Origin: Siminovitchia terrae | GTDB lineage: Bacteria > Bacillota > Bacilli > Bacillales > Bacillaceae_C | DNA length: 56,332 nt | Reading direction: 5' to 3' | NCBI RefSeq assembly: GCF_003605405.2 | Contig: NZ_QYTW02000034.1 | Span: 1-56,332 of the forward strand | Shown here: piece by piece, positions 6,906 to 55,629 of the stretch | How positions within the stretch are numbered: position 1 is the stretch's first letter | Layout of the letters: every line of letters begins with the position of its first letter | Position numbers and translations under genes: made by a program | The notes under the pieces: generated by a model | The model's input: only the letters and a program-made list of their open reading frames with translations | Told to the model about the DNA's origin: nothing | Database searches by the model: none

Positions 6906-7098
6906 TTAACTTCATTCAGCAGAAGTCTCCCACTTCTGTAAGAGGTGAGATGAATGCATATTGGTATTCCATTCAGTGGGGGGGCAAACCCCGGATGAAC
7001 AAAGTTAAAGCCTTCGGCGGATGCCACTGATTTTCAGAGGGAATTTATTGAGCGAAGCTCGATAAAATCTGGGCGCAAATACGCCAAGGCGCATTTGA
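6906..7098 (+). repeat. R1 repeat, copy 1 (193 bp)
   Basis: Starts TTAACTTCATTCAGC and ends GGCGCATTTGA, followed by T. Domain I is closed by TTAACTTcATTCAGC with its imperfect inverse. Domain II is a CAGATTTT/AAAATCTG-type stem enclosing TTATtGAGC gaa GCTCGATAA. Domain III is a terminal AAATaCGCC/GGCGcATTT hairpin. This copy is diverged: GTGAG stem changes, and CACTGA instead of CACAGA puts a stop in the otherwise open frame. Confidence 0.9.
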
Positions 7099-7284
7099 TT
7101 TATGGCTTAAACGTTCTACTATAGTCTTGCCGCTCGGAGCTTTGCCATTTTAACTCTGCTTTTTTGTCTATACGAGAGAGACCAGATTGGGCTTAGTTAG
7201 CTTTTCTGATTAAGCCTTTTACCTCATGTGAAATGTATATACACAAAGAGAAAGGAATCCCAACGAAAATGACAAAGTCGATTT

Positions 7285-7899
7285 TTATGAGAATGCTCTT
7301 TTTCTAATGATGAATTCTGCTATAAGTAGATTAAGAGTCCAACATAACCAGACAGCTATCGTGTAGGCATTTCCATAGGAAAAATTCATCGCGTTATGGG
7401 CAATGGCTACGATTATATAAATAGTCATATTCGCAAAGGAAAGAAAGAAACTTCGAATGATCCATTGACTATGTAAGGTTACTTTTTGTCTCTTGATGTA
7501 CCAATAACCAAGGATAGTTGTTCCGAGCCATAATGTATTTAAAATAAGAAACCCTATTGTGCTTGGCCAGCCCCCGGTTGCAAAGAAAGAGACATAGACT
7601 CCGGGAATGAAATTTAAAATGATAGACAAGACATACAATCGGCCATTCCAACGGTGGAACTTGATAGATTTCACTCGTATTCTTTTAATAACGCCTAACG
7701 GGCCCGTGAGAAGGGAAATAATAGCCAGCAAAATATGAATACGAATCATGAATATCCATAGGGATTGATCTGTTAGAATCAGATCTTTTCTAGAAATAAA
7801 TTTTTCGAAAGCAGGATCAACCATAAAATTCTTTGAAAATGTATGAAATACCCACATGATTGGGAGGATTAAAACGATTATTCCAATAGTTTTTTTCAT
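7285..7899 (-). CDS. DUF2306-like multipass membrane protein
   Basis: 204 residues with about six hydrophobic helices. It contains the His-rich pattern typical of DUF2306 membrane proteins: RIHILLAIISLLTGPL, then KFHRWNGRLY, and HSQWIIRS. The function of the family is not established; conserved histidines near the membrane suggest haem or metal binding (inference). It is the last gene of a minus-strand group with the membrane protein at 7924 and the DJ-1 protein. Starts with ATG; GGAGGAA lies just upstream. Confidence 0.6.
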   Translation of the reverse strand: MKKTIGIIVLILPIMWVFHTFSKNFMVDPAFEKFISRKDLILTDQSLWIFMIRIHILLAIISLLTGPLGVIKRIRVKSIKFHRWNGRLYVLSIILNFIPGVYVSFFATGGWPSTIGFLILNTLWLGTTILGYWYIKRQKVTLHSQWIIRSFFLSFANMTIYIIVAIAHNAMNFSYGNAYTIAVWLCWTLNLLIAEFIIRKRAFS

Positions 7900-7923
7900 T
7901 AGGTCTATTCCTCCATTGAATGT

Positions 7924-8358
7924 TTAGGAAAACAAACTGCGGTTTGTCATCATAAAGATAGAAGCAACGATGAGTAAAAATGTGATCCAGCTGCACCATT
8001 TTAACTCTGACTCATGTTCTAATAATTTCTTCTCAGGGTTCTCTGCAAAAATGATCCTTTTTATGTTTTTATGCAGCATTCCTATCAGGCCACCAATAAG
8101 GATCAGCAGCAGGATGGCAATCCCTATCCATAGGATAGAAGGATAGGATGAATACGCAACGACCATCCAAACCCCTGAAATCATTAAAAGAACTAATGCA
8201 TAATGACTTGCTCGCGTAAAGCTCAAAGCTGTTTTAAGTGCTGTCTTTAAATCATTACCCGTGCGAGAAAAAAAGCTATTCATTACTAAAGGGAGAGCTA
8301 GCAAGCTTCCCAAAAATAAAGCACTAACTACATGAAAAAATACAATAATTGAATACAT
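7924..8358 (-). CDS. Four-TM membrane protein, CopD/DUF2269-like
   Basis: About 144 residues, starting at ATG (MYSIIVFFHVVSALFLGS) with GGAG 8 bases upstream; a GTG three codons earlier is less well placed. Four predicted membrane helices, with His in helix 1 (FFHVVSA) and in RASHYALV, as in CopD/DUF2269-like proteins. Its stop and the next gene's start are 24 bases apart, and the DJ-1 gene's stop is 15 bases upstream of its start, so the three genes are probably cotranscribed. Family assignment is moderate. Confidence 0.55.
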   Translation of the reverse strand: MYSIIVFFHVVSALFLGSLLALPLVMNSFFSRTGNDLKTALKTALSFTRASHYALVLLMISGVWMVVAYSSYPSILWIGIAILLLILIGGLIGMLHKNIKRIIFAENPEKKLLEHESELKWCSWITFLLIVASIFMMTNRSLFS

Positions 8359-8373
8359 CGTTCCCACTCCAAT

Positions 8374-9378
8374 TTAAGAAATACGATGTCCAGTTAATTT
8401 AGATGAAGGAAGCATTCCGGCTTTTGCTTCACCATACATCTTGTTCCCAACTACAGTAACGATAAATTTTAAAGTAAGACGCATGGGCTTAGTCACTTTC
8501 ATAGACCACTTTAATTGATTCCCTTCAAGTACAGGTTTGTCCAAAGCGACAATTTCTTCTCCTTGCTTTGCAGTTCCTACTATTTGTCCATCTTTAGAAG
8601 TTAAATCTAATAAAACGGAAAGTTTTCCAAGAGGAGTGGAAATGGTAGTATCCCATTTCCCTTGAAAATTAACATCCTTATGAGCTTGGATAGAGGAATG
8701 ATCCCTTGTCGCTTCAATTGGATTTTCTTGTTGGCTTTCTTTAGGTGCATTTCCTTCAGCTTTCCAAACCGTACCTCTCCGTTCATACTCAAATAATTGT
8801 TCCACAGCAAGTGCTATCCGAGGACCTAATTCTCGTTCAACTAAGTAAAGGGCAACATCGAGCCCTGAAGTAACGCCACCGCCAGTAACAAGATCGCCAT
8901 CATCTACGATACGGGCATTAACTGGAATAGCGTTGGTAGCACTCAAAAGACCCATTCCCATATGATGCGTTACTGCATGGCGCCCCTCTAATAAACCATC
9001 CATTGCTAAAATGAGAGAACCCCCACAAACTGTGGAAAGTAAAATATCAGCTTTCTTCATTGCTTCTCGTAGTAGATTGCTTAATTCAGTTTCAGCGGCT
9101 TTTTTTAACTTTACGGGAATGGAATCTGGCCCATTATCATGAACAGTACCAGCTGCTCCCGGAACAAGAATGATCCCTTTACGGGATAAATCAAATTTCC
9201 CAGTTGCTTGAAGTTTTAACTGATTAATTCCACTTGTAACCATTCCCGCACCTTCAGCGGACACAAGCTCTACTGTTATCTCTTCATTGGAGAACATGGC
9301 AGCAGCAGAGAATACTTCATATGGTGCAAGGGCATCTAATAAATCAAATCCATCAAATAATACAATTTGAACATGCAT
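8374..9378 (-). CDS. DJ-1/PfpI family protein with a C-terminal beta-rich extension
   Basis: 334 residues from the ATG at 9378 (MHVQIVLFDGFDLLD), which has GGAGG at a good distance; an upstream start at 9420 lacks this. Residues 1-200 form a DJ-1/PfpI glutaminase-like fold with the nucleophile-elbow Cys in STVCGGS and an acidic residue in LAPYEVF, as in ThiJ, isonitrile hydratase and AraC-associated members. Residues about 235-334 (GKWDTTISTPLGKL...) form a beta-rich domain unusual for the family, possibly a calycin-like ligand domain. Substrate unknown. Confidence 0.75.
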   Translation of the reverse strand: MHVQIVLFDGFDLLDALAPYEVFSAAAMFSNEEITVELVSAEGAGMVTSGINQLKLQATGKFDLSRKGIILVPGAAGTVHDNGPDSIPVKLKKAAETELSNLLREAMKKADILLSTVCGGSLILAMDGLLEGRHAVTHHMGMGLLSATNAIPVNARIVDDGDLVTGGGVTSGLDVALYLVERELGPRIALAVEQLFEYERRGTVWKAEGNAPKESQQENPIEATRDHSSIQAHKDVNFQGKWDTTISTPLGKLSVLLDLTSKDGQIVGTAKQGEEIVALDKPVLEGNQLKWSMKVTKPMRLTLKFIVTVVGNKMYGEAKAGMLPSSKLTGHRIS

Positions 9379-9459
9379 ACATATTACCTCCATTTTAAAA
9401 TAGTTATCAGTCGAAACCATCCGGTCTAATTTGAGATTCTGTGACGCTTGAGGTATTTC

Positions 9460-9681
9460 TTATTTTATAAGAAGATCTTTTAACCTTTCATATTCCGCCT
9501 CGTCAAGTTCTCCCTTGGCTAACCGGATTTGAAGAATCGAGGTGATGTTTCGGTCTCCTTGTTTGGAAGCACGATAACGATATCGAATTTCAAATATTCG
9601 AACCGCCGCAAAACAGAAAAGAGTAAGGCAAAATAATGCACCGAATGGAAAGAATGCGAAACTGTCATTTTCGAATCCCAT
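9460..9681 (-). CDS. Small membrane protein with a C-terminal SHOCT domain
   Basis: 73 residues: one N-terminal membrane helix, then SHOCT-like ILQIRLAKGELDEAEYERLKDLL. SHOCT is a short helical oligomerisation motif at the end of many small Bacillus membrane proteins. The ribosome binding site AGGAGG lies just upstream. It is divergent from the two-component system at 9942. No specific function can be assigned. Confidence 0.65.
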   Translation of the reverse strand: MGFENDSFAFFPFGALFCLTLFCFAAVRIFEIRYRYRASKQGDRNITSILQIRLAKGELDEAEYERLKDLLIK

Positions 9682-9941
9682 TTGAAAATCCTCCTTTTAA
9701 GTAGTTAAAGAGTGGGCGAAACATTACACTCAGTTTGTGGTGGATATTCGCTGATCGCTCACAATGAAAGAATAACCTTTAAGTGTCACAAACGATGGCG
9801 CAAAAAAGTCACGAAACAATCACAATCCATTATCAAACCTATAACTTTCCTTGTTCCTTATGGAAAAAATGATAAACTAAACATGAAATTTGATTGATAG
9901 GTTTATCTAGGGAGAGTCATCGGGGGAAAGGTGGGATTTTC

Positions 9942-10628
9942 ATGAAGGAATTACAGACGATTCTAGTCGTGGATGATGACAAAAGCATTGCCGAACTATT
10001 GAGGGACTTCTTAGAGAATGACGGTTTTCATGTGGAAACTGCTTTTGATGCCACTGAGGCACTGGCTGTGCTTATGCATGGTACAATTCATTGCATCATA
10101 CTTGACATCATGATGCCAGGAAAGAATGGTTTCGAGGTATGTCGACAGATTCGTATGGAAAGCAACGTACCCATCCTTTTCTTGAGTGCTCGCAGCGATG
10201 ATGTAGATAAGATTCGCGGTCTCGCACTTGGAGGGGATGATTATATAGTTAAAACCGCTTCACCGGGTGAGATTGTTGCCAGAGTGAAGGCTGTATTACG
10301 ACGCTCCAGTTCTCACCAAGAATTGCAGAGGAGGGTATTGGATTATGGACGTCTTACGCTGGATTTGTCCACAAGAGAAGTATTTGTAGAAGGGCGACCC
10401 ATCTCACTCACACCGAAAGAGTATGATTTGCTGCTACTGTTTGCCGAACATCCAAAATATGTTTTTTCATATGACCAATTACTTGAAAAATTTTGGAGTG
10501 GAATTGGCGACAAACATACCATTCGCGTCCATCTAAGCCGACTTCGTGAGAAAATTGAAGCCGATCCGAATGATCCACAATTCATAATCAATGTATGGGG
10601 CATCGGTTATCGTTTCAAAGGTGAATAA
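9942..10628 (+). CDS. OmpR/PhoB-type response regulator
   Basis: 228 residues from the ATG at 9942, which follows GGGGGAAAGGTGGG; an upstream frame start at 9894 has no ribosome binding site. Receiver domain: acidic pocket VVDDD, phosphoacceptor Asp in IILDIMMPG, Thr/Ser in LSAR, and Lys in VKTA (usually KPF; here the Pro-Phe is replaced by Thr-Ala). C-terminal winged helix with LTPKEYDLL and TIRVHLSRLREKIE, ending in the GIGYRF motif. It overlaps no gene but is followed after one base by its histidine kinase. Target unknown; the neighbouring minus-strand membrane genes are candidates. Confidence 0.9.
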   Translation: MKELQTILVVDDDKSIAELLRDFLENDGFHVETAFDATEALAVLMHGTIHCIILDIMMPGKNGFEVCRQIRMESNVPILFLSARSDDVDKIRGLALGGDDYIVKTASPGEIVARVKAVLRRSSSHQELQRRVLDYGRLTLDLSTREVFVEGRPISLTPKEYDLLLLFAEHPKYVFSYDQLLEKFWSGIGDKHTIRVHLSRLREKIEADPNDPQFIINVWGIGYRFKGE

Positions 10629-10629
10629 A

Positions 10630-11994
10630 ATGAAAACAATTCGCATTCGTAAGTTTACAATACTCAGCTTATTTCTTATCCTCACTCTCCCATGGTTATT
10701 CTATGTAGCCGCGCATTTTATGGAAACGAAAACTGTCAGATTAGGAATGGATGATTCTCAAAAAGAGAATGTGGAAGCAACGATTCACTTGATCGAGACA
10801 AACACCGATAACTGGACAGACCCCGCTTGGCAGGAACAATTGAGCAGACAGTTAGAGAAAATGAATATGGATGTGTCGATTCTATCTGACTCCAATCAGG
10901 AGATTTTCCGAACGGATTCTGAACGGGAGCCCTCCTTTAAGCGAACAGAGCATTTTTCGATCATTCAGGATGATCAAGTACTTGGAAGGGTTGCTATTTA
11001 TCAAGCAAATTCAAAAGTAACTCAAATGATTGCGGCATTCTTTGGTCTATTATCGGCTTTTTTTATTGTCGGATACGCCATTCGAAGATATATTCTCATA
11101 CCTCTGGAGAAAACGAGCCAGTGTGCTCGGCAGATTGCAGAAGGAGATTTGGATGTCCAATTACCTACATCTAGGATCACAGAAATTGCTGAGGTTCATG
11201 ACGGATTTAAAGTGATGGTAGATGGTCTAAATGAATCTTTTCAAAAACAAGTGGAATTAGAAGATGAACGGCGATTTGTGATTGCTGCTGTTGCCCATGA
11301 TTTACGGACACCGTTATTCGCCTTACGAGGTTATTTGGACGGCCTAGAGAAAGGCATTGCCAATTCGCCGGATAAAATGGCAAAATATTTGGCGGTTTGT
11401 AAGGAAAAGTCAGCACAATTGGACCGACTCGTAGAGGAACTTTTTACATTTACAAAGACAGAATATTTAGATGCGGAACTTAAAGAAAACACGGTTGATC
11501 TTCCACTTGTGTTACAGAAGTCGATTGACAGCCTGAATCCTTTAGCTCAGAAAAAGCACATCTCGATTATCGTGGATCATTCTGGGGAGGATTGCGTAAT
11601 CATGGGCGATTCACACTTACTGGAGCGAGCCATGAATAATTTATTGGATAATGCGGTCAGACATACACCATGCTACGGTAAGGTTTTTGTCCAATGCTTT
11701 AAGAATGGTAACAAAGTGATCTTTACTGTTCAGGATACAGGGGAGGGTTTCTCCTCGGAGGACCTCCAACGAGTATTTGAACCACTATATCGTGGGGAAG
11801 CATCGAGAAATCGTTCAACCGGAGGCGTCGGGTTAGGATTGACCATTTCAAAAAAAATCATTAGGCGACATGGAGGCGACCTAATGGTAGATAACCATTC
11901 AGAAGGTGGCGCACTCCTGAGAGGTTGGATCCCCTTCCTTGATGCACAAAACATGGGAACCAAGAAGCAATCTAAAGAATCAAAAGAGAAATAG
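10630..11994 (+). CDS. Sensor histidine kinase
   Basis: 454 residues from the ATG at 10630, one base after the response regulator stop. TM helix 1 at about 10-30, an extracellular domain of about 100 residues, TM helix 2 at about 135-155, HAMP (LEKTSQCARQIAEGDLDV), HisKA with AHDLRTPL (phosphoacceptor His), N box NNLLDNAVRHTP, G1 DTGEGF, F box FEPLY, and G2 GGVGLGLTI. All catalytic motifs are intact. The stimulus is not evident from the small extracellular domain. Confidence 0.9.
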   Translation: MKTIRIRKFTILSLFLILTLPWLFYVAAHFMETKTVRLGMDDSQKENVEATIHLIETNTDNWTDPAWQEQLSRQLEKMNMDVSILSDSNQEIFRTDSEREPSFKRTEHFSIIQDDQVLGRVAIYQANSKVTQMIAAFFGLLSAFFIVGYAIRRYILIPLEKTSQCARQIAEGDLDVQLPTSRITEIAEVHDGFKVMVDGLNESFQKQVELEDERRFVIAAVAHDLRTPLFALRGYLDGLEKGIANSPDKMAKYLAVCKEKSAQLDRLVEELFTFTKTEYLDAELKENTVDLPLVLQKSIDSLNPLAQKKHISIIVDHSGEDCVIMGDSHLLERAMNNLLDNAVRHTPCYGKVFVQCFKNGNKVIFTVQDTGEGFSSEDLQRVFEPLYRGEASRNRSTGGVGLGLTISKKIIRRHGGDLMVDNHSEGGALLRGWIPFLDAQNMGTKKQSKESKEK

Positions 11995-12105
11995 ACATAA
12001 AATAATAGCTGTCTTTTGATGGGAAAGCAAAGTAAGAGAGATGTTCCTTCCTTCAGTGAATATATTATTTTACACATCAAGGGAAGGTGGAGAGGGGAAG
12101 GGGTT

Positions 12106-12466: not shown

Positions 12467-12524
12467 TTTGTGGATTGTGGACAATCTGAAGCGGATTAGA
12501 GAAAGAATGGATTCGGCATTGTAC

Positions 12525-16473: not shown

Positions 16474-16630
16474 TTAACTTCATTCAGCAGAAGTCTCCCA
16501 TTCCATTCATTGGGGGTCAAACCCCGGCTGAATAAAGTTAAAGCCTCCGGCGGATGCCACAGATTTTCAGAGGAAATTTATCGAGCGAAGCTCGTTAAAA
16601 TCTTTATCAAATACGCCAAGGCGCATTTGA
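16474..16630 (+). repeat. R1 repeat, copy 2 (157 bp, internally deleted)
   Basis: Same ends (TTAACTTCATTCAGC ... GGCGCATTTGA). About 34 bases are missing between CTCCC and ATTCCATTCA, which removes the right arm of the first hairpin, and the segment after AAAATCT reads TTATCAAATACGCC instead of GGGCGCAAATACGCC. Decayed but clearly the same family; it lies between rsiV and the convergent dmf operon. Confidence 0.88.
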
Positions 16631-16821
16631 TAAAGATTTCTTTGTGTTCAACGTCTGTCGAGGGCTAACAACTCTCTGTTCTAATGCTTGAAAGCCTTTA
16701 GAGAACCTTATTTCGGACCTAACCAAAAACAATGAGATGAAAAAGATTCAAGTTGTTCTCGCTGCTTGGTAGATTGATAAATGACTTTTACACAAAGACA
16801 TACTCTTATGGAAAATTAAAC

Positions 16822-20076: not shown

Positions 20077-20269
20077 TTAACTTCATTCAGCAGAAGTCTC
20101 CCACTTCTGTAAGTGGTGAGATGAATGCCTATTGGTATTCCATTCAGTGGGGGTTCAAACCCCCGCTGAATAAAGTCAAAGCCTCCGGTGGATGCCACAG
20201 ATTTTTAGAGGGAATTTATCGAGCGGGGCTCGATAAAATCTGGGCGCAAATATGCCAAGGCGCATTTGA
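20077..20269 (+). repeat. R1 repeat, copy 3 (193 bp)
   Basis: Full-length copy with standard ends. The loop of the GAGC hairpin is changed (GAGCggggCTC) and the terminal hairpin has AAATATGCC, which keeps pairing through a G.U wobble. It lies in the leader of the gntR operon, between operator and start codon. Confidence 0.9.
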
Positions 20270-20306
20270 TTTTTAAAAAAATAAAATGATTTAAATAGGT
20301 GATAAT

Positions 20307-21072: not shown

Positions 21073-21189
21073 GTGGAGAAAAAACTCCCGAAATTTCACC
21101 CAGGTATCCCAGCAATCATGAGTATCATCTTCGCATTGATTACAGGTATTATTTGTGCTAAATGGCTCAATATCATTATGAACCTTTAA
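21073..21189 (+). CDS. Small single-TM protein ending at an R1 repeat (complete or truncated)
   Basis: 38 codons from a GTG with a strong AAAGGAGG ribosome binding site 8 bases upstream: VEKKLPKFHPGIPAIMS, then the helix IIFALITGIICAKWLNIIM. The stop codon TAA (21187-21189) is part of the TTAAC end of R1 copy 4, so a longer membrane protein may have been cut short by the repeat, or a small protein ends there by chance. Not recognised. Confidence 0.45.
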   Translation: MEKKLPKFHPGIPAIMSIIFALITGIICAKWLNIIMNL

Positions 21190-21358
21190 CTTCATTCAGC
21201 AGAAGTCTCCCACTTCTGTAAGTGTTGAGGTATTCAGTGGGGAGGTAAACCCCGGCTGAATAAAGTGAAAGCCTCCGGCGGATGCCACAGATTTTCAGAG
21301 GAACTTATCAAGCGGAACTCGATAAAATCTGGGCGCAAATACGCCAAGGCGAATTTGA
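21186..21358 (+). repeat. R1 repeat, copy 4 (173 bp, internally deleted)
   Basis: Standard ends. About 20 bases are missing after AAGTGTTGAGG, removing the GATGAATGCATATTGG segment. The GAGC hairpin has decayed (TATCAAGCGGAACTCGATA) and the terminal hairpin reads GGCGAATTT. It lies within the gntR operon; its end is 17 bases before the next start codon, so the next gene's ribosome binding site directly abuts it. Confidence 0.88.
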
Positions 21359-21375
21359 TTTTGGAGGGATAAAAA

Positions 21376-21705
21376 GTGAAACCACCTTTAAAGTTTGCTT
21401 TATATTCTGTTTTGTATGCTTCTGAGGATGGGGTTTGGGAATATGAAATTTATGAGAAATTGAAGGGGCACTATAACCCTCGGGCATTAAGTAAATTAAG
21501 ATCCATCCTCCTTGAATTGCACAATAAAAGCTGGACTGATGAAGTCGATGCAGAGGTATATGGAGAAACCGTTTTTAGAAAATATAAACTTCAAGAACGC
21601 CACAGGGAATTTGTAGATTATCAGCTTTCACCTCTTAAGATAATAAAGGAACTCGGATTGGACGTCGGGAAAGGAGAGGTGAAGCATGAACCAGTCGCTA
21701 AATGA
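21376..21705 (+). CDS. Unrecognised soluble protein in the transporter operon
   Basis: 109 residues from a GTG with GGAGGG 7 bases upstream. It starts [29 protein letters not shown] and has a mix of helices with a winged-helix feel ([17 protein letters not shown]), but no family is recognised. Its end overlaps the next gene's start by 20 bases, which indicates translational coupling to the transporter. It might be a partner or a regulator of that transporter (inference). Confidence 0.6.
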
Positions 21706-22690
21706 TATTAAGCTTCTTCAAGAATCCCGGAAGGTTCGCATCGGAATGGTCTATGCTGCTCTTGGAGCACCTATGCTAGGTTTGGCATTTGGCTTCGCAG
21801 GAATGGCTGGTGCGCTGCACCCATTTGACATGGCTTATCCTACAGGTCCTATGACCTTTCAATTCTTTGAATATATGTTTGGAGTCCTTACGATCTTTAT
21901 CTATTCATTTATAGTGGGCACTGCCAAAGATAATTTCAGGGTATTCAGATCGAAAATCTCCTGGTATGGCGTTTTTATGGCTATGACTGGCATGATGGGA
22001 GATTTCCTGTTTTTTGCATCTTCCGCAATAGTAGGAGGAGCCATTGCAGGTCCGTTAGCAGGGTTGTTTGGTTTTTGGGGAGCTGTCGTCACCTCTATCG
22101 TATATAGAGAAAAGATCATGCAGAAATGGACTTTAATTGGAATTGCATTTATTGTCATAGGCATTTGGGTCGCTTCAGGCGGGATGGCGCTGGCTGCTCC
22201 TGCAGGTGTTTCATCTACTGCCATTTTAATCGGTGCTGGAATGGGACTGTTGGCCGCGATTGTATATGGAATTGAAAGCTTTGCTATTGCTGCAGGGTCA
22301 GATATGATGCCTGAAGAAAGTTCGCTTTTCTGGCGAGCAGGCTGGGCATTAGTTGGTGCTGTCATCATAAACTTTGTTATTATGCCAAAGTTTACAGATA
22401 TTGCTAGTGTTATGCTGCAAGATCCAAAATGGTGGGCGTATGCTGCTGTTACAGGAGGAGCATGGGGAACTTATATGATTGTCTCATTGTACATCGGTAT
22501 TAACACGGCTGGGACTGTCGGAGGAGGTTTGCTTGCGAGCACAGGCTTTGTCTGGACAACTTTCCTTTCGATGACCGTTTATGGCGGCAACTGGAGTACT
22601 TCTTTAATGCTTGGAAGTTTAATCTTGTTCCTTGGAATAGGAGTTATGCTTTTAAGGCCAGCCGAATTGATAGCGAAAGTGCGAAGTTGA
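21686..22690 (+). CDS. EamA/DMT-like 10-TM transporter
   Basis: 334 residues with about ten membrane helices rich in Gly and Ala, in two halves (FFASSAIVGGAIAGPLAG, then TMIVSLYIGINTAGTVGGG-like segments), as in drug/metabolite transporters. ATG follows GGAGAGGTG. The placement between a FadR-type regulator and hydantoinase genes suggests import or export of the amide/hydantoin substrate or product (inference). Substrate unknown. Confidence 0.7.
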   Translation: MNQSLNDIKLLQESRKVRIGMVYAALGAPMLGLAFGFAGMAGALHPFDMAYPTGPMTFQFFEYMFGVLTIFIYSFIVGTAKDNFRVFRSKISWYGVFMAMTGMMGDFLFFASSAIVGGAIAGPLAGLFGFWGAVVTSIVYREKIMQKWTLIGIAFIVIGIWVASGGMALAAPAGVSSTAILIGAGMGLLAAIVYGIESFAIAAGSDMMPEESSLFWRAGWALVGAVIINFVIMPKFTDIASVMLQDPKWWAYAAVTGGAWGTYMIVSLYIGINTAGTVGGGLLASTGFVWTTFLSMTVYGGNWSTSLMLGSLILFLGIGVMLLRPAELIAKVRS

Positions 22691-22715
22691 CTCTATTTTG
22701 AAAGGGGTTACAAAT

Positions 22716-22955
22716 GTGGACCAATTAAAAGATGAATATATAAAGATTACAAAAAGCGAGCATAAGTATCTGGCTGTCGGAGTTATCTTAGCCTCAATGG
22801 TCTTTGTTGTCCCGTTTCTTATCATTATTGCCAATGGTTGGTGGGAACCTCTAGGCTCAGCTTCAGATGGCTGGAAATGGGTTTTCACATCCATCGTATT
22901 ATTATCACTGATTTATGTTTCATTGCTTTTTGATAAATTCTATCGGAAGCATTAA
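22716..22955 (+). CDS. Small two-TM membrane protein
   Basis: 79 residues from a GTG with GAAAGGGG 9 bases upstream (MDQLKDEYIKITKSEHKYLAV); a start 6 codons earlier has no ribosome binding site. Two membrane helices with the loop NGWWEPLGSASDGWKW. It is 25 bases after the transporter and probably an accessory subunit. No family recognised. Confidence 0.6.
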   Translation: MDQLKDEYIKITKSEHKYLAVGVILASMVFVVPFLIIIANGWWEPLGSASDGWKWVFTSIVLLSLIYVSLLFDKFYRKH

Positions 22956-22959
22956 TCAT

Positions 22960-23153
22960 TTAAATTCATTCAGCAGAAGTCTCCCACTTCTGTAAGTGGT
23001 GAGATGAATGCCTATTGGTATTCTATTCAGTGGGGGTTCAAACCCCGGCTGAATAAAGTCAAAGCGTCAGGCGGATGCCACAGATTTCCAGAGGAAATGT
23101 ATCGAGCTTAAGCTCGATAAAATCTGGGGGCAAATACGCCAAGGCGCATTTGA
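22960..23153 (+). repeat. R1 repeat, copy 5 (194 bp)
   Basis: Starts TTAAATTCATTCAGC and ends GGCGCATTTGA. The central loop is GAGC ttaa GCTC (one base longer), which keeps the stem but breaks the frame. It lies between the small membrane gene and hyuA; its end is 34 bases before the hyuA ATG. Confidence 0.9.
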
Positions 23154-23187
23154 TTACATCATCAGTTTTTATAAGGGAGGAACATCA

Positions 23188-30709: not shown

Positions 30710-30901
30710 TTAACTTCATTCAGCAGAAATCTCCCACTTCTGTAAGTGGTGAGATGAAAGCATATTGGTATTCATTCAGTGGGGGTTCAAATCCAGGCTG
30801 AATAAAGTTAAAGCCTCCGGCGGATGCCACAGATGTTCAGAGGAAATTTATCGAGCGGAGCTCAATAAAATCTTGGCGCAAATACGCCAAGGCGAATTTG
30901 A
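30710..30901 (+). repeat. R1 repeat, copy 6 (192 bp)
   Basis: Standard ends with small changes: GATGAAAGCATATT, one base lost in TATTCATTCAG, GAGCggaGCTC hairpin, and GGCGAATTT at the end. It lies downstream of yitT (minus strand) in a gene-poor region. Confidence 0.9.
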
Positions 30902-30955
30902 TAGAATGCCCGTGACCCGAGGGCAACTCCGTTCGGATCATCGGGTTTAACATAT

Positions 30956-38170: not shown

Positions 38171-38355
38171 CAGATGCGACGCACAGGACGTGCTAGTGCC
38201 ACCGAAGCCACAGGATGTGGCGTCTTGAGGCGGCCGACGTACAGGAAGTACTAGTGCCACCGAAGCCACAGGACGTGGTAGCTTGAGGCGGCCGACGTAC
38301 AGGAAGTCGCGTTCTGAGCCTGCCCACACTGACCAAGGCGCATGCGCTTTTCTTA
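38171..38355 (+). repeat. R2 array: mini-hairpins with AGGA loops, 58-bp tandem duplication
   Basis: A 58-bp unit (TAGTGCCACCGAAGCCACAG...) occurs twice, 38194-38251 and 38252-38309. The segment holds five ACAGGA hairpins: GCAC/GTGC (38181-38193), GCCAC/GTGGC (38207-38221), GTAC/GTAC (38239-38251), CCAC/GTGG (38266-38278), and CGAC/GTCG around 38293-38309. It ends in GCGCTTTTCTTA as other R2 copies do. It lies within the leader of the ugp operon. The open frame running through it into ugpB is not used. Confidence 0.75.
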
Positions 38356-48371: not shown

Positions 48372-48409
48372 GTGGTTTCAGGGCACTAAGATAAGTCAAC
48401 ATCGGCTTC

Positions 48410-48522
48410 GACGCACAGGACGTGCTAGTGCAAGCGAAGCGACAGGATGTCGCGCCCTGAGCCTGCTGAGTGCCATCGGCTCGAGGTCATAAGCCAAGCG
48501 CTGCTAAACGGACGCTTTTCTT
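48410..48522 (+). repeat. R2 repeat with two AGGA-loop hairpins
   Basis: GCAC AGGAC GTGC (48413-48425) and GCGAC AGGAT GTCGC (48439-48453) match the 38-kb array, followed by CTCGAGGTCATAAGCCAA (48480-48497), shared with 6850-6867 in reverse, and GGACGCTTTTCTT at the end. Its end overlaps the stop codon of the convergent merR gene. Confidence 0.7.
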
Positions 48523-49346: not shown

Positions 49347-49415
49347 GTGGGATTTGTAACAATTTTTCGTTTCAGGCTGACACAATGAGATTAATCACTA
49401 GACGGGGAAGTCTGT

Positions 49416-49609
49416 TTAACTTCATTCAGCAGAAATCTTCCACTTCTGTAAGTGGTGAGATGAATGCATATTGGTATTCCATTCAGTGGGGGTTCAAACC
49501 CCGGCTGAATAAAGTTAAAGCCTCCGGCGGATGCCACAGATTTTCAGAGGAAATTTATCGAGCTTAAGCTCGATAAAATCTGGGCGCAAATACGCCAAGG
49601 CGCATTTGA
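49416..49609 (+). repeat. R1 repeat, copy 7 (194 bp)
   Basis: Standard ends. Central hairpin is the perfect palindrome TATCGAGCTTAAGCTCGATA (one base longer than most copies). It lies between divergent merR and pdxK; its end is 115 bases before the pdxK ATG. Confidence 0.92.
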
Positions 49610-49723
49610 TACAAAGCTGCCAACTTCTTGCCAAAGCTCTTATGGTTGCAGGATAATATGAATAGGATTTTATTTTCTAAAACTGATCTTTATTTGATTC
49701 AATAGTCAGGAAGGGTGGATCAC

Positions 49724-50551
49724 ATGAGTATACCTAGAGCATTATCGATAGCCGGTTCTGCCGCGCGAGGCGGAGCTGGGATTCAGGCGGATCTAAAGAC
49801 ATTCCAAGAGATGGATGTGTTTGGGCTTAGTGCCATTACGGCGATTGTAGCCAATCACCCACGTACAGACCAGGGTGTTTTTCCGATAGCTTTTGATGCT
49901 ATTGAAGCGCAGGTTTACACTGCACTGCGCGATATTGGAGCAGATGCGATAAAAACGGGGATGCTTTTTACCGAGGAAATTATCACCAATGTGGCCAAGT
50001 GGATTAAGGAGACGGACACTCCTAATATTGTTGTAGATCCAGTTATGATCGGAAAAATGGGATCTGCGTTGTTAAAGGACGACGCTATTGAGGCTGTAAA
50101 AACAAAATTGATCCCGTTAGCCACAATTATTACGCCGAATATGCCAGAAGCTGCGCGACTGTTGGAAACCGATCAGCCGCTTCATTCAGTTGATGATTTG
50201 AAACAAGCAGCAGTTGAATTACAAAAACTAGGTCCGAAATACGTCCTTGTTAAAGGCGGGCGTTTAGAGGGCCCTGCGGTCGATGTATTATTTGATGGTG
50301 AAAAATTCCACATGCTTAAAGCTCCCCGAATTGATACAATCCATACAAATGGAGCGGGATGCAGCTATTCAGCAGCTATCACGGCTCAGCTGGCCAAAGG
50401 AAAATCAGTCCAGGAAGCTGTGGAAGAAGCGAAAAAATTCATTACAGCAGCCATCCGGCACTCGATTACATTTAAACGCGGCGTTGGCCCAACATACCAT
50501 GCCGCCTACCAGAAATATGGTGAAACAGGGGTACACATCACAATTGAATAA
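49724..50551 (+). CDS. pdxK: Pyridoxal kinase PdxK (ThiD-like)
   Basis: 275 residues from the ATG at 49724 with GGAAGGGTGG upstream. ThiD fold: IAGSAARGGAGIQADLKTFQE near the start, DPVMIGKMG, TPNMPEA, and anion hole NGAGCSYSAAITAQLAKG with the catalytic Cys/Gly-rich turn. The sequence is closer to B. subtilis PdxK (YwdB) than to ThiD (GAGC rather than GTGC). Phosphorylates pyridoxal, and perhaps hydroxymethylpyrimidine, for vitamin B6/B1 salvage. Monocistronic. Confidence 0.82.
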   Translation: MSIPRALSIAGSAARGGAGIQADLKTFQEMDVFGLSAITAIVANHPRTDQGVFPIAFDAIEAQVYTALRDIGADAIKTGMLFTEEIITNVAKWIKETDTPNIVVDPVMIGKMGSALLKDDAIEAVKTKLIPLATIITPNMPEAARLLETDQPLHSVDDLKQAAVELQKLGPKYVLVKGGRLEGPAVDVLFDGEKFHMLKAPRIDTIHTNGAGCSYSAAITAQLAKGKSVQEAVEEAKKFITAAIRHSITFKRGVGPTYHAAYQKYGETGVHITIE

Positions 50552-50553
50552 AT

Positions 50554-50589
50554 GAAGAAGCCAGATCCGGGAGCGGATCTGGCTTCTTC
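50554..50589 (+). terminator. Terminator of pdxK
   Basis: Perfect 15-bp stem, GAAGAAGCCAGATCC (50554-50568) with GGATCTGGCTTCTTC (50575-50589). Confidence 0.8.
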
Positions 50590-50694
50590 ATGATATGCCC
50601 GGCATGTGGGCACACTAGTCTCGAGTTGCGAAGACAGAAGCGGCAGCTAGCCTAACACAAGAGTGTCCGCGATGACGCAGAATCTAGTCGTTTC

Positions 50695-51180
50695 TCACTG
50701 CTTCGATTTGTAATATTGGTGATGTAGTTGACGGACTTGCTCCGCAAGCTCGGGAACTGGGCCGTCTACTTCCGTATCACGAATGACTTCCTTGATCGGA
50801 AGACTGCGGACACGCGATGTTGCGGTAACTCCAAGCTCGTTCAACCATTGCCCCAATTGTTTGGAGGAACTTGCATAAACGATCCGACCTAATCTAACCC
50901 ATCCGTGTGCAGCAGCACACATGGGACAATGTTCTCCAGAGGTATACACTGTCGCCTTGCTTCTTTCTTCTGGTGTCATGTTCTGAGCCGCCCAGCGCGC
51001 CAATGCAAATTCCGGATGTTGGGTATGGTCGCCCCCGGCAACATGGTTATGGTCTTCTACAAGTACTTCTCCGTTGGCTGAGACAAGGATGGAGCCGAAG
51101 GGCTCGTCTCCCTTCTTTAAAGCAGTCCTTGCAAGATCAATACAACGTTGCAGATGTTTTAAATCTGTCTCATTAATCAT
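50695..51180 (-). CDS. Nucleoside/guanine deaminase-like protein
   Basis: 161 residues. CDA-fold zinc deaminase: HPEFALA provides the zinc His and catalytic Glu, HCPMCAAAHGW the two zinc Cys. Length and order fit GuaD-type guanine deaminases and related nucleoside deaminases. GAGGACTC before the ATG. The spacer between it and pdxK (50590-50694) holds no gene. Confidence 0.85.
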   Translation of the reverse strand: MINETDLKHLQRCIDLARTALKKGDEPFGSILVSANGEVLVEDHNHVAGGDHTQHPEFALARWAAQNMTPEERSKATVYTSGEHCPMCAAAHGWVRLGRIVYASSSKQLGQWLNELGVTATSRVRSLPIKEVIRDTEVDGPVPELAEQVRQLHHQYYKSKQ

Positions 51181-51380
51181 GATTGAGTCCTCCTTGTAAA
51201 TGTATTGGCAGCTCCTCGTTTACTCTTCTTCAGGATTAAGAACGTAACGAAGGCTATAATAAAAACTGTATTCCTTAACTTTTTAACCTGACCATGTATC
51301 GAGACCGCAATTTGTAAGGAACTAAAATTTAATGTGCTGCTTCATCCCTATGCCGTTGGACTTTCATGGCATTTGAATCC

Positions 51381-52094
51381 CTAACTTTTTTCATTTGCCT
51401 TTATTAATAGGCTTTCAATTTCCTTGAATCCAAGTTTTTTTGCGTGTTGCAAAGGAGTGATCCCATCGCTATCGCCTATATTCACATCTGCACCATGTTC
51501 GACTAGCAGTTGTACGATTTTTTGATGTTTTTCTCCACCATCTCCTAAAATAACTGCTTCCAATAAAGCGGTCCAATGCAAGTTGTTGATGTGATTGACA
51601 TTAATGTCTGAATGGGTAAGCAACTCGCGAACAACTTCAACATGTCCACGTTCTGAAGCTGGAATTAGAGCTGTACCTCCGAATCGGTTTGTAAGCTTTG
51701 TATCGGCACCACCTTCAATTGCAAGCTTGAGGATTTCAAGCTTCCCTGATGCTCCAGCATGCAGGAGCACATTGTCTAAATTTTTGTCGCGAATATTAAT
51801 GTCGGCGCCTTTTTGTATCAACGTCTTTACTGTATCTACTTGATTGTTATAAGTTGCTGCCATGACGGCTGTTCTTCCTTGGTCATCTGTTGCATTAATA
51901 TCTGCCCCATCTTGAAGCAATGCCAAAACATCATCAGTCTTTCCATTTTCTGCTGAAGCAATTAACTGTTGGTCCATTACTTCCACCTTCTTTTCACTGG
52001 ATTGTGGTTGTTTCTGTAAATCTTGTGAGGAGTTTGGAACACTCTGACATGCGGAAAGCAGAGCGACAATAAAGATTATGCCGTAACGATACAT
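51381..52094 (-). CDS. Ankyrin-repeat lipoprotein
   Basis: 237 residues from the ATG at 52094 (MYRYGIIFIVALLSAC) after AAGGAGGGTGG; a longer frame start at 52136 is unneeded. Lipobox LSAC, then about five ankyrin repeats (GADINATDDQGRTAVMAATYNN, GADINIRDKNLDNVLLHAGAS, GADTKLTNRFGGTALIPASERG, NVNHINNLHWTALLEAVIL, GADVNIGDSDGITPLQHAKKLG). Surface-tethered protein-interaction module of unknown partner. Confidence 0.88.
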   Translation of the reverse strand: MYRYGIIFIVALLSACQSVPNSSQDLQKQPQSSEKKVEVMDQQLIASAENGKTDDVLALLQDGADINATDDQGRTAVMAATYNNQVDTVKTLIQKGADINIRDKNLDNVLLHAGASGKLEILKLAIEGGADTKLTNRFGGTALIPASERGHVEVVRELLTHSDINVNHINNLHWTALLEAVILGDGGEKHQKIVQLLVEHGADVNIGDSDGITPLQHAKKLGFKEIESLLIKANEKS

Positions 52095-52218
52095 CGTCCA
52101 CCCTCCTTTTTTGACTCTATAAAAATATGGTAACATGAAGATATCTTAACGAAAAATATATATAAAATATGCTTTGCTAAGGTTTTTCGTATATAAGAAA
52201 AGGAGTGTCAATCAACGG

Positions 52219-52626
52219 AGCCTATAAGCTCAGTCAAAACTGGCTTTCAAATGTACCTAAAGAATTAATGACTTATTTTTAAGATCTAATTAAGGCTATG
52301 AATAATTGGGAAGAAGAAATATTTAACTACTTCAATTCCCCCATAACAAACACCTATACAGAATCCCTAAATCGATTAATTAAGATAATGAATCTGTTGG
52401 TCATGGTTACTCTTTTGAAGCCCTAAGAGCAAAGGTTTTGTTCCCCAAAGGTTATCGTAAAATTAAAAAGAAAAAGAAATTCAAAGAAGTTGAAATTACT
52501 TTCGGAAAAATGTTACCTGATCAATTCCCAAATTGGGAACAAACTGGTTATGAATGGGTGTATGAAGAAATCTATGGTGCTGATTTTTCCACACTGACTA
52601 AGGCAATGGAGGAGGGTTCTTTATAG
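52219..52626 (+). pseudogene. ISL3-family transposase remnant
   Basis: The C-terminal third of an ISL3-type DDE transposase: AYKLSQNWLSN, then after an in-frame stop EEEIFNYFNSPITNTYTESLN, then a frame change near 52405 to GHGYSFEALRAKVLFPKGY. The tail to 52626 is open. One stop and one frameshift make it non-functional. No flanking terminal repeats were recognised. Confidence 0.7.
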
Positions 52627-52852
52627 CCCTCTTTCCACACTATTTTCCGAATACCCCAAAAATAATGTTAGTGCCGTAAAAAGATGTGAAAGGAAGTTTC
52701 TTTTTCGAAAAAAGTAACCAATCTAATGCTCGCTAGGAGTTCAATCAGAGGTTACTATTTTGTTCGAATATGAGCTGTAAAGAATCAAGTAATTGGGACG
52801 ATAAGCGAAAAAATGGATTTTTCGACAAGCCAAGAGGGTTTGGGTCTGGCGA

Positions 52853-52919
52853 GGTTGTCAATATAAATTTGCTCCTTATGCTCCCTCCGGTCCGCTATCG
52901 CAAATTTATATTGACAACC
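52853..52919. repeat. 20-bp perfect inverted repeat, 27-base loop
   Basis: GGTTGTCAATATAAATTTGC (52853-52872) and its exact inverse at 52900-52919. The loop is GC-richer (CTCCCTCCGG inside) than the AT-rich arms. It does not border a gene end; it may be a transposon insertion-target type stem-loop or a remnant of element ends near the ISL3 remnant. The surrounding 52627-53067 has no gene. Confidence 0.8.
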
Positions 52920-53067
52920 GTAAAGTAAGTGCACCTGGCCCAGAGCAAGAATCGAATTTCTATAATGACAGTAATGCAAGCGCTGATTTATAGCTATTGC
53001 TTGTTACTCAATCTTTAAAAATAAGCATTTTTCATTTATAAATAAATTGACAAGGAGAGTTGATTCT

Positions 53068-53511
53068 ATGGATTTTGGAGCACAAATAAAAAAGATAAGA
53101 ACTAATGGTAAGTTAACTCAAGAACAGTTAGCACAAAAATTAAATGTATCAAGACAAACTATTTCTAGTTGGGAAAACAATCGAAATTTACCTGATTTGC
53201 AAATGGTGGTCCAAATCGCTCAAACATTTAATCTTTCTCTTGATCAATTAATTTTGGGGGATGATACTATGACAAACAAATTGGTAAAAGACGGAAGCGA
53301 AGTAAGAAAAGCAAGAATGAACTTGATAAGTATCATTTTGTTAACAATCGGAGCAATTTGCTTTTTAGCAAAGGCACTTATTGGATCAGAAGTAGATAGT
53401 AACGGCATGCTAAATGAACCATTTTTCCTAATTCCAATTGGGTATTTATTTTTATTGAGTGGAGTTATAGGTTTATTAATTGCTTTGGCAAAAAAAATAA
53501 TAAAAAAGTAG
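53068..53511 (+). CDS. XRE-family helix-turn-helix regulator with two TM helices (DUF3955-like)
   Basis: 147 residues from the ATG at 53068 after AAGGAGAG; an upstream start at 53047 is not needed. N-terminal XRE HTH (LTQEQLAQKLNVSRQTISSWENNRNLPDL), then two membrane helices (about 85-105 and 118-140) with a DUF3955-like pattern. A membrane-bound regulator. Lipid or envelope sensing is a guess. Confidence 0.85.
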   Translation: MDFGAQIKKIRTNGKLTQEQLAQKLNVSRQTISSWENNRNLPDLQMVVQIAQTFNLSLDQLILGDDTMTNKLVKDGSEVRKARMNLISIILLTIGAICFLAKALIGSEVDSNGMLNEPFFLIPIGYLFLLSGVIGLLIALAKKIIKK

Positions 53512-53536
53512 TTATTTGATCCTCTGATTCACATAT

Positions 53537-53578
53537 TCCCAGTTATTTCAGTAATAGACTGTTTAACTGGGATTTTTT
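53537..53578 (+). terminator. Terminator of the xre gene
   Basis: TCCCAGTTA (53537-53545) pairs with TAACTGGGA (53564-53572), followed by six T. Confidence 0.88.
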
Positions 53579-53758
53579 GTCTTCTTAGCCGGGGAGCGTC
53601 GCGTTTTTATTACCTATTAGACAAAGCCAGTGCAATACGATGCTATAATCCCCCAGTTAAATTCTACTCGCCCCGGCTGTAGTTAATGATGAAGCTCTAT
53701 ATAATGCTGTACGTCCGTATTTATTCCAAATTGCATCTAGCTTTTTAGATTAAAGGGA
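53579..53758. other. Gene-free region with an 8-bp inverted repeat
   Basis: AGCCGGGG (53587-53594) and CCCCGGCT (53671-53678) flank 76 bases. The plus strand after 53672 has a short open frame ending RPYLFQIASSFLD, a possible gene remnant with no known family. Confidence 0.3.
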
Positions 53759-53805
53759 TTGACATTTATAGACTACAGTTGTAGTATTTTGCAATGTTGT
53801 AGTCA
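53759..53805 (+). promoter_or_regulatory. Beta-lactamase promoter with a BlaI/MecI-type operator
   Basis: TTGACA (53759-53764), 17-base spacer, TAGTAT (53782-53787). Overlapping the -10 is GACTACAGTTGTAGTA (53771-53786), which differs from the staphylococcal bla/mec dyad TACTACATATGTAGTA only at the first base and the centre. A half-site TTGTAGT follows at 53797. The promoter is about 215 bases before the bla ATG. Confidence 0.7.
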
Positions 53806-54001
53806 AATGATAATTAAATGGTGTAAAGGTTGGGTATTACGTGGCTACATTAGTGATTTTGAATTAGTGTTATAAGTAAAGATACAGCAAACAGCCAACA
53901 AATTAATATATTTTTATTAGCAATCAGTAAAGAAATTACACACTTCATCATTGCTAGGTCAAAGAAGCAAGTTATATTTTGGATAGAACTAGAAAGAGGT
54001 T

Positions 54002-54937
54002 ATGAATTTGATAAAAACATATAAAAACAAATTCAGCATGCATCATTTTACACTGCTTATGTTGTTGGTCGCGGTGATTACACTCACTGCTTGCGTGGAT
54101 AAAGACAATTCGACTAATTCTCTGTCTAAAGAGGAGAATGAAGTGGGACAAACAGCAAATACAGATGAAAAGTTTGCCCAACTCGAGAACGAGTTTGACG
54201 CTCGGATTGGTGTCTATGCGATTGATACGGGCACGAATCAGACTATCGAATATCGACCAGAAGAGCGCTTCGCTTTTGCATCTACTTACAAAGCTTTAGC
54301 CGCAGCCATCTTGCTGCAGCAGAACTATTTGGAAGATCTTATGGAAGTTATCACCTACACCGAGGATGATTTAGTTTCCTATTCTCCGATTACAGAGAAA
54401 CACGTGGATACCGGGATGACCCTTTTGGAATTAAGTGAAGCGGCGGTCCGGTTCAGTGACAACACCGCGGGGAACCTCCTATTTGAGGCATTAGGAGGTC
54501 CTAAAGGATTTGAACAAGCCTTAAGGCAAATGGGTGATAACGTTACCCAAGCGGATCGCTTTGAACCAGATTTAAATGAATTTACCCTAGGAGAAACTCG
54601 TGATACCAGCACACCGAGAGCTCTTGCCACCAGTCTTCAGGCTTTCGGAGTCAGCGACTTACTTTCCGACGATAAACGTGAATTGTTCACAAATTGGCTA
54701 AAAGGCAATGCTACAGGAGATACACTAATTCGTGCAAGCGCACCTGAAGGCTGGGAGGTTGGTGATAAGAGCGGGGCCGGAGGTTATGGAACGAGGAATG
54801 ATGTTGCCATTGTTTGGTCTCCAAACAGAGAACCAATTGTCATTGCGATTCTGTCAAAAAAAAATACGGAGGATGCTGAGTATGACGATGCGCTGATCGC
54901 GCAAGCTGCTAAGGTCGCACTTAACACTCTAAAGTGA
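54002..54937 (+). CDS. bla: Class A beta-lactamase, lipoprotein type
   Basis: 311 residues. Signal peptide with lipobox LTAC (Cys31), then the class A fold with S94-T-Y-K97, S152-D-N154, E188-P-D-L-N192 (general base Glu) and K256-S-G258. All active-site motifs intact, so the product should hydrolyse penicillins at the outer membrane face. GAAAGAGG before the ATG. A BlaI-type operator lies in the promoter, but no blaI/blaR1 is in the window. Confidence 0.93.
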   Translation: MNLIKTYKNKFSMHHFTLLMLLVAVITLTACVDKDNSTNSLSKEENEVGQTANTDEKFAQLENEFDARIGVYAIDTGTNQTIEYRPEERFAFASTYKALAAAILLQQNYLEDLMEVITYTEDDLVSYSPITEKHVDTGMTLLELSEAAVRFSDNTAGNLLFEALGGPKGFEQALRQMGDNVTQADRFEPDLNEFTLGETRDTSTPRALATSLQAFGVSDLLSDDKRELFTNWLKGNATGDTLIRASAPEGWEVGDKSGAGGYGTRNDVAIVWSPNREPIVIAILSKKNTEDAEYDDALIAQAAKVALNTLK

Positions 54938-54969
54938 ATGAGAGGCTGATTAGTTTGTACCAAGGAGTT

Positions 54970-55629
54970 GGTGGGCAGAACTCGCTATCATTCGATTGCC
55001 GCTTGAGTTGGATGATTTTTCGGTTCTTCACCTTTATACGGAACCGTTTTATGTGATTACATCCAATAAGAAGAAGTTATTTAACTTCATTCAGCAGAAA
55101 TCTCCCACTTCTGTAAGTGGTGAGATGAATGCATATTAGTATTCCATTCAGTGGGGGTTCAAACCCTGGCTGAATAAAGTCAAAGCCTCCGGCGGATGCC
55201 ACAGATTTTCAGAGGAAATTTATCGAGCGAAGCTCGATAAAATCTGGGCGCAAATACGCCAAGGCGCATTTGATTGAAGACGTATCGCTTATGGATATTC
55301 AGGACCTGCCGCTCTTATTGCCCAGTACACAGGGGTTAGGTGTGCATTATTTGATTTTGGAAGCTTTTTCTCGATTTCACCTGCACCCCAAAATTATTGA
55401 AGAATGTTCAGACATTTCACTTTTGATGGATTTGGTTTCATCTGACTTTTGTGCATCAATTGTTCCAGAAACCCTGCTTAAGCGATATAAAGAGTATGCT
55501 ATATACGCTTACAAAATATCCAGTATAATGGAGATGGCTGCCCCGGTCGGATTAGTATGGCTGAAAAATCACCGTTTATCTAATACAGCCCAAAAGTTTA
55601 TAGAATTGTTCACAAACAAAGCGATATAA
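54970..55629 (+). pseudogene. LysR-type regulator, 5'-truncated and interrupted by R1 copy 8
   Basis: Before the repeat the frame reads AELAIIRLPLELDDFSVLHL and later EPFYVITSN; after it, EDVSLMDIQDLPLLLPSTQGL to KFIELFTNKAI. Both belong to a LysR substrate-binding domain. No helix-turn-helix part precedes 54970, where the sequence meets the bla downstream region. Excising 55081-55273 gives KKKLFEDVS in frame. Two independent lesions, so non-functional. Confidence 0.82.
55081..55273 (+). repeat. R1 repeat, copy 8 (193 bp), inserted in lysR
   Basis: Standard ends TTAACTTCATTCAGC and GGCGCATTTGA. The flanks joined without it read TTA TTT GAA in the lysR frame, so the insertion is exactly 193 bp with no target duplication. 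Boundaries are ambiguous by two T bases. Confidence 0.95.

Follow-up and report, generated by a model that had tools for sequence, protein, structure and literature searches.

Introduction

Elements of the IS200/IS605 group move as single-stranded DNA, and the model set out for IS608 involves hairpins, guide pairing, a target that is kept in the left flank and action on the lagging-strand template (PMC5934647, PMC7290912, PMC6006769), the last being described for ISDra2 as well (PMC6006769). The PATEs of Haloquadratum and Halanaerobium are defined by four properties: they lack terminal inverted repeats, carry palindromes close to each end, do not duplicate their target and are too short to encode a transposase (PMC3119063, PMC7290912); their ends are reported to be related to those of an IS605-type transposon (PMC3119063). 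REP sequences are described as carrying a GTAG-type motif and being associated with RAYT proteins (PMC6006769, PMC8266576), and the bcr1-bcr18 repeats of the Bacillus cereus group as interspersed mobile repeats of 100-400 bp whose mobility is linked to TTTAT repeats (PMC6542083). Here we analyze R1, an interspersed repeat present in eight copies in a 56,332-nucleotide stretch of DNA from Siminovitchia terrae (contig NZ_QYTW02000034.1; hereafter the window). R1 is probably a PATE-like, non-autonomous single-stranded DNA transposon that moves in the manner of IS200/IS605 elements.

R1 shares all four PATE properties, being 190 nt long and having a P1 hairpin and a right-end arm that covary. It appears to work like a non-autonomous IS200/IS605 derivative. 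Unlike PATEs, R1 has a body of three hairpins with a conserved core, its left hairpin extends into the target, and its relatives span several families of the order; moreover, no IS605-type element with R1 ends was present among the Y1 and TnpB loci that we fetched. As in IS608, ISDra2 and IS605, R1 lies 3' of a fixed sequence kept in the left flank, without duplication, and has subterminal hairpins, pairing between cleavage site and a guide-like inside arm, and an association with the lagging-strand template. That fixed sequence, TTTAA, is also the target of Helicobacter pylori IS605. R1 contains neither tnpA nor tnpB, and its left-hand guide-like sequence serves as the 3' arm of a hairpin, within a 16-nt pairing. 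We do not file R1 inside IS200/IS605, since the guide at its left end is laid out differently and our searches turned up no related element that bears an enzyme. Like REP/BIME repeats mobilized by TnpA-REP (RAYT), R1 is a numerous, intergenic, non-autonomous hairpin repeat in a genome that encodes a Y1-type enzyme, but it is much longer, its consensus lacks GTAG by eye, it does not lie beside the source genome's RAYT-like gene, and it occurs in genomes with no RAYT match. The absence of terminal inverted repeats and target duplication sets it apart from miniature inverted-repeat transposable elements. The bcr repeats, compared by description and not by sequence, are likewise interspersed mobile repeats of Bacillaceae, with mobility tied to TTTAT repeats (PMC6542083) where the R1 target is TTTAA. 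A search of open-licence articles found no paper on the R1 element, an absence that carries little weight.

R1 is inserted directly 3' of TTTAA

A preliminary description of the window listed eight R1 copies, six of 192-194 bp and two with deletions. Their starts proved exact and their lengths, in order, are 193, 157, 193, 173, 194, 192, 194 and 193 bp, all on the plus strand. Searching the whole genome (5,302,661 bases in 68 contigs) with a 25-base R1 core, allowing at most three mismatches, returned 507 matches (289 and 218 on the two strands), whereas the reversed core pattern returned none, which excludes chance as the source of the copies. If all 507 were full length, R1 would occupy up to ~1.8% of the genome. 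The copies are dispersed and form no arrays, and 5 of 184 fall inside open reading frame calls.

Element boundaries were counted in 161 full copies from 1,656,332 bases, leaving out 23 of 184 copies that were not full. The conserved region runs from T TTAAC to TTTGA T; outside these limits the flanks are unrelated except for a T on the left (92%), a T on the right (98%) and a mild right-hand A/T preference. The sharp ends previously noted, TTAA(C)...TTTGA between unrelated flanks, therefore hold with one further conserved T per side, and the copies are not simply parts of larger duplicated blocks. The extent of the element required revision: the mobile unit is C...TTTGAT, 190 nt in a typical copy, from the C after TTTAA through the T after TTTGA, and TTTAA is part of the target, outside the unit. 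The very ends of the unit, CTTCATTC.. and ..GCATTTGAT, form no terminal inverted repeats.

Empty sites identified the target. Three lie within other repeats, at C23:5089, C23:40796 and C34:51715 (AAGATTTAA|TATGTC, GATTTAA|TAAGTC and TAGATTTAA|TAGAGG; a single substitution adjoins the junction of the third), and the fourth is the S. fordii counterpart of window copy 3 (GGTTTAA|TTTTAAAA), for which the filled site has ATTAA. In these four cleanly readable cases the unit was added directly 3' of TTTAA with neither duplication nor loss of target sequence, which identifies TTTAA or ATTAA as the R1 target. Consistent with this, the left flank is TTTAA in 138 of the 161 full copies and ATTAA in 10. 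A sequence related to the surroundings of copy 1, at C12:362156, lacks R1 and reads GTATTTAA|TTCC. Other filled and empty pairs were too diverged to give an exact junction, and the site at C1:262602 is not exact. In a wider placement of copies in relatives, 16 of 161 could be placed, and a gap rule called 3 of these empty, 6 filled and 7 other; of two cases inspected, one is not exact. Placing the copies of contig C23 against S. fordii succeeded for 6 of 36, with two or three readable and none as clean as the four used. The empty sites, the sharp ends, the ~500 copies and the conserved structure described below together uphold the proposal that R1 is a non-autonomous mobile element.

Each of the 68 compared copies of exactly 190 nt in the source genome differs from its nearest neighbour at three or more positions, so the burst looks past. 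Judged from these sequences, the family is probably not active in this genome now, and the mobilizing enzyme may have been lost.

R1 orientation follows replication

GC skew of the contigs (between +0.07 and +0.10, or near -0.11) was used to assign the leading strand, and 178 of 184 copies in the 1.66 Mb proved to be oriented with that G-rich strand. This bias does not derive from genes, since 14 of 14 copies with both neighbouring genes on the lagging strand are nonetheless oriented with the leading one, nor from the target, since intergenic TTTAA occurs 964 times on the leading and 1038 times on the lagging strand. The R1 loci of 22 other genomes behaved similarly, with 53 leading and 8 not (36:6 outside the genus, p=2.8e-6). 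These loci were assigned by 3-kb local skew, which is correct in 90% of windows from the source genome, and some are orthologous and hence not all independent. The count covers 61 of 73 loci, the rest having no core match or a repeated core, and leaves aside the R1 loci of G095, G132 and G235. Because R1 copies run with the G-rich leading strand, the strand carrying TTTAAC...TTTGAT is the lagging-strand template.

R1 folds into covarying hairpins

Covariation was assessed in 24 diverse members and in 36 hand-anchored members from more families (L406 aligns badly and was kept), against shuffles that ignore relatedness. Among the 24 members, 16 pairs showed compensatory change versus 8.0 when shuffled (0/500 shuffles as high), and the fold scored 0.141 versus a maximum of 0.070 for slid versions. 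Among the 36, doubly changed cells numbered 28 versus 4.6 in the P6/P7 central stem, 11 versus 4.0 in its P8 cap and 14 versus 5.0 in the CAAAT/ATTTG outer arm of the right-end hairpin, each with 0/500 shuffles as high. Genome G101 provides a natural replacement: its right hairpin is swapped to CAATAACTCC/GGAGTTATTG and its central stem to GGCAGAAAAGTTG/CAACTTTTCGCC. In copies from the source genome, the rate of change is 0.030 at paired and 0.069 at unpaired positions, for a pair set that includes the rival P4/P5 stems considered below. R1 also contains a conserved stretch, GCCTCCGGCGGATG.

Covariation above background thus supports the large stem that had been proposed to close the first domain, as well as the CAGATTTT stem with its GAGC/GCTC cap. 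The terminal hairpin is supported through its outer arm and the G101 swap, whereas its CGCC/GGCG part alone is not significant (1 cell; 61/500 shuffles as high). The inner ATTCAG-GGGG/CCCC-CTGAAT hairpin competes with the large stem for a single 3' arm, and relatives with a minimal first domain keep the large stem only. Because several members (e.g., L405, L400, L385 and L250) cut the first domain down to a short hairpin, the inner hairpins of the source genome's copies appear optional. As a whole, the left end forms a long hairpin of imperfect pairing, in which the outer and inner boxes are fixed and the tip varies.

Alternative pairings were also weighed. RNAalifold prefers a rival fold with P4 and P5 (GCCT/AGGC, GGCG/CGCC), which is 94% paired in the 24 members versus 86% for the right-end hairpin. 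However, P5 is broken in G101 while the right-end hairpin is rebuilt, and was set aside on that ground; judged by double changes, P5 and the CGCC/GGCG part both fall short of significance (76/500 and 61/500 shuffles as high). P4 is nearly invariant (98.6% paired) with zero double changes, so that it may still form. A candidate CCTC/GAGG pseudoknot shows no covariation of its own.

The target flank and the inside arm covary

The left hairpin starts within the target, TTTAA and the adjoining bases of the unit pairing with an inside arm (P1, Table 1). As the target lies outside the R1 unit, a match between flank and arm should reflect target choice or its maintenance. We compared the five flank bases with the inside arm in the 36 hand-anchored members, fixing the register by the inside 11 pairs only, and found 7 doubly changed cells versus 1.5 when shuffled; the maximum was 6 in 2000 shuffles, none reaching 7. 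Seven elements at altered targets, with the matching base in their own arm, account for these cells: L066 (GTTAA), L253 (ATTAA), L073 (AGTAA), L403 (TGTAA), L409 (GTAAA), L088 (TTTCA) and L407 (TTTAC). The right-end bases covary with the arm 5' of the right hairpin (the outer arm counted above), so that the right end has the guide-hairpin-end layout of IS200/IS605, and the left end pairs and covaries within the 3' arm of its hairpin.

R1 is patchily distributed

With a covariance model of the R1 3' domain, 13 of the 34 genomes from the same bacterial family scored as R1-bearing (E<=0.01), as did 16 of the 299 genomes sampled across the order, these 16 representing 9 of 117 genera (E<=1e-4). 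Seven genomes from two other genera each hold at least 13 copies, 13 being the ceiling of the scoring. R1-rich genomes include G129, G158, G207, G232, G256, G278 and G319, and in G158 eight copies have similar scores. Counted with the core pattern, copies number 13 in S. fordii and 149 in Bacillus norwichensis, compared with 507 here, which points to a burst of R1 in the source lineage itself. Plasmid, phage and viral collections held no match to an R1 copy from the source genome or to two exact patterns. Two species pairs (L066/L242 and L243/L253) have single diverged copies with a common downstream flank, positioned directly upstream of an apparent start codon; such copies may have been retained or domesticated.

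Proposed mechanism and alternative explanations

Our best reading is that R1 is an old, patchily spread family of non-autonomous single-stranded DNA transposons with an unusual left end. The replication fork would expose the R1-bearing strand, on the lagging-strand template, as a single strand; a candidate tyrosine HUH (Y1-type) transposase supplied in trans would bind the R1 hairpins and cut after TTTAA and after TTTGAT, freeing a single-stranded circle; and the circle would be inserted at another TTTAA, picked by pairing with the inside arm. This mechanism is our inference. If the reading is true, R1 is a very abundant, replication-oriented, guide-paired single-stranded DNA element in ordinary Bacillaceae, its hundreds of natural insertions and many diverged relatives are material for testing how target choice by DNA-DNA pairing evolves, and its ends and hairpins give a clear search image for the mobilizing enzyme.

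Several observations weigh against this account. In the source genome we counted four matches to Y1, of which two are open, one reverse transcriptase, and 15 matches to TnpB; six of the TnpB loci were fetched. The open Y1 match at C12:346820 is IS200-like, with ends unlike R1, and that at C13:34702 is RAYT-like, with its own palindrome on both sides (both labels come from reading the sequences). R1 ends were absent from all transposase loci fetched, comprising the four Y1 loci of the source genome, 29 Y1 loci of relatives and 30 of 41 TnpB loci (8 genomes); where copies occur near fetched loci (L062, L208 and L215), they are not the ends of those loci. Neither does the presence of Y1 track R1 (11 of 13 family genomes with R1 and 19 of 21 without). 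The sequence related to the site of the C12:147640 copy has no TTTAA. Guide matching is incomplete: 12 of 19 non-TTTAA flanks have no matching arm base, L068 carries the L088 arm yet sits at TTTAA, and L078 is also mismatched. A GTCAAA arm replaces GTTAAA in 48 of 147 readable copies of the source genome, and 42 of those 48 are still at TTTAA, so arm pairing is not strict at every base. Target recognition by IS608 is likewise described as using non-canonical contacts (PMC5934647, PMC6006769). At the left end, the guide-like sequence forms the 3' arm of the hairpin itself, whereas the IS608 guide is a tetranucleotide 5' of the hairpin foot. On orientation, neither of the two G158 copies counted is on the G-rich strand, and Halanaerobium IS605 copies are described as showing no strand preference (PMC7290912), indicating that strand bias is not universal in the IS605 family.

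A more radical version of single-stranded DNA transposition, which we regard as possible yet doubtful, is that R1 elements are self-contained DNA-guided non-autonomous transposons in which the left hairpin includes the target, the inside 3' arm is an extended guide that selects the insertion site, and the enzyme lies outside the known TnpA and RAYT groups. Were it true, the natural covariation seen between guide and target in different species would document how elements were retargeted during evolution.

We find it unlikely that R1 is an oversized REP/BIME-type substrate of the chromosomal RAYT-like Y1 protein (C13:34510-35064). This candidate was attractive at first: action on single-stranded DNA would be expected of a Y1 protein, and all five family genomes with a RAYT match of at least 71% identity (the source genome, G001, G003, G022 and G032) carry R1. 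It was weakened by R1-bearing genomes with no RAYT match, namely S. fordii (G005), G023 and G030, and a RAYT match at E<=1e-20, obtained in 168 genomes, is lacking in the R1-rich G158 and G278. In the source genome, G001, G003 and G032, the gene is instead flanked on both sides by a GGGG..CCCC palindrome of the GGGGTCTGACCCC type, the core of which occurs 19 times in 1.66 Mb. At the five closest RAYT loci (~1.5 kb on each side), BLAST placed R1 at two (L357 and L358), ~800 bp away, and none near the source genome's own gene.

Two further ideas are also unlikely. One holds that R1 spreads as RNA, in the manner of a SINE or an intron, and that a reverse transcriptase copies it back at TTTAA, recognized as an exon-binding site; the elaborate conserved structure including GCCTCCGGCGGATG, the absence of target duplication and the single reverse transcriptase gene would suit it. 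A first impression that G-U asymmetry would reveal the folded strand failed on counting, however, with 39 G-U and 34 A-C in the stems of 24 members and mixed per-stem counts in 36; as G-U is not in clear excess, there is no support for a selected RNA. No R1 sequence matched Rfam at the gathering score, a few weak hits lay below it, and hits above threshold inside R1 relatives were confined to inserted Bacillaceae-1 RNA. Truncation has no 5' bias either: 22 partial matches lack the left end in 8 cases, the right in 13 and both in 1, some being internal deletions or tile edges. With orientation following replication and not genes, the earlier proposal of a mobile structured RNA is not supported. 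The other idea is movement by a different recombinase of folded single-stranded DNA, either a rolling-circle Y2/IS91 type or a tyrosine integrase acting on attC-like hairpins. The strand bias would fit this also, as would the long imperfect left hairpin, which we take to be reminiscent of attC, but the copies form no arrays and the guide-hairpin-end layout of the right end suits Y1 better.

Finally, that R1 is a fixed cis-regulatory or chromosome-organizing repeat is very improbable given the empty sites, the 507 core matches versus 13 in S. fordii and the unrelated flanks, even with some copies at orthologous places in several species, often directly upstream of an apparent start codon, and with slower change at paired positions.

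Features of the window and neighbouring repeats

Table 1. Positions of R1 copies and of structural elements of copy 7 in the window.
Feature	Position	Strand	Remarks
R1 copy 1, mobile unit	6910..7099	+	target flank TTTAA at 6905-6909
R1 copy 2, domain 1 internally deleted	16478..16631	+	
R1 copy 3	20081..20270	+	S. fordii empty site GGTTTAA|TTTT
R1 copy 4, internally deleted	21190..21359	+	
R1 copy 5, upstream of hydantoinase operon	22964..23154	+	
R1 copy 6, flanked by two minus-strand genes	30714..30902	+	
R1 copy 7	49420..49610	+	
R1 copy 8	55085..55274	+	
P1 5' arm, copy 7	49415..49430	+	target TTTAA + CTTCATTCAGC; pairs with 49504-49519; covaries
P1 3' arm, copy 7	49504..49519	+	GCTGAATAAAGTTAAA; last bases are guide-like sequence for TTTAA
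Central hairpin P6/P7/P8, copy 7	49533..49585	+	GCC.CAGATTTT ... ATCGAGC/GCTCGAT ... AAAATCTGGGC
Right-end hairpin, copy 7	49587..49608	+	CAAATACGCC/GGCGCATTTG; outer arm 14 vs 5.0; G101 version CAATAACTCC/GGAGTTATTG

The hydantoinase protein adjoining copy 5 is 97% identical to proteins of B. norwichensis and S. fordii, on which basis the source genome was grouped with Siminovitchia (Bacillaceae); G003 and G005 return hits identical to those of the genomes of these two species. DNA identity to S. fordii is 94% in the hydantoinase operon and averages ~84% over 160 kb of aligned C23 pieces. At the orthologous place of copy 5, B. norwichensis also carries R1 and S. fordii carries a hybrid copy: in its locus L262, a single R1 lies between the left flank of copy 4 and the right flank of copy 5 (window 21186-23154), and the intervening stretch with its EamA-like gene (21686-22690) is absent. 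From this arrangement, the S. fordii deletion likely arose by R1-by-R1 recombination.

In L066, L073 and L072 (genomes G026 and G040), a complete Bacillaceae-1 RNA (76-78 bits) is inserted at the apex of the central R1 hairpin, so that two mobile-looking repeats are nested at one structural position. A second interspersed repeat, of 61 nt, has three window copies and more in the rest of the genome sampled; at 38177-38295 and 48409-48469 it shows minus-strand likeness to the Rfam Bacillaceae-1 RNA (33 and 28 bits, slightly below the gathering score of 35). R1 copies elsewhere in the genome are inserted in repeats related to it.

At its left edge (1-330), the window holds the 3' end of a Cas12f1-like TnpB gene and, after it, a hairpin, CTCCCACTT..AAGTGGGAG, that resembles the inner hairpin of the first R1 domain. 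Positions 876-6680 encode a 1934-aa protein with DUF4011, AAA helicase, MTES_1575 nuclease and DUF3320 domains, a composition that is possibly that of a defence protein.

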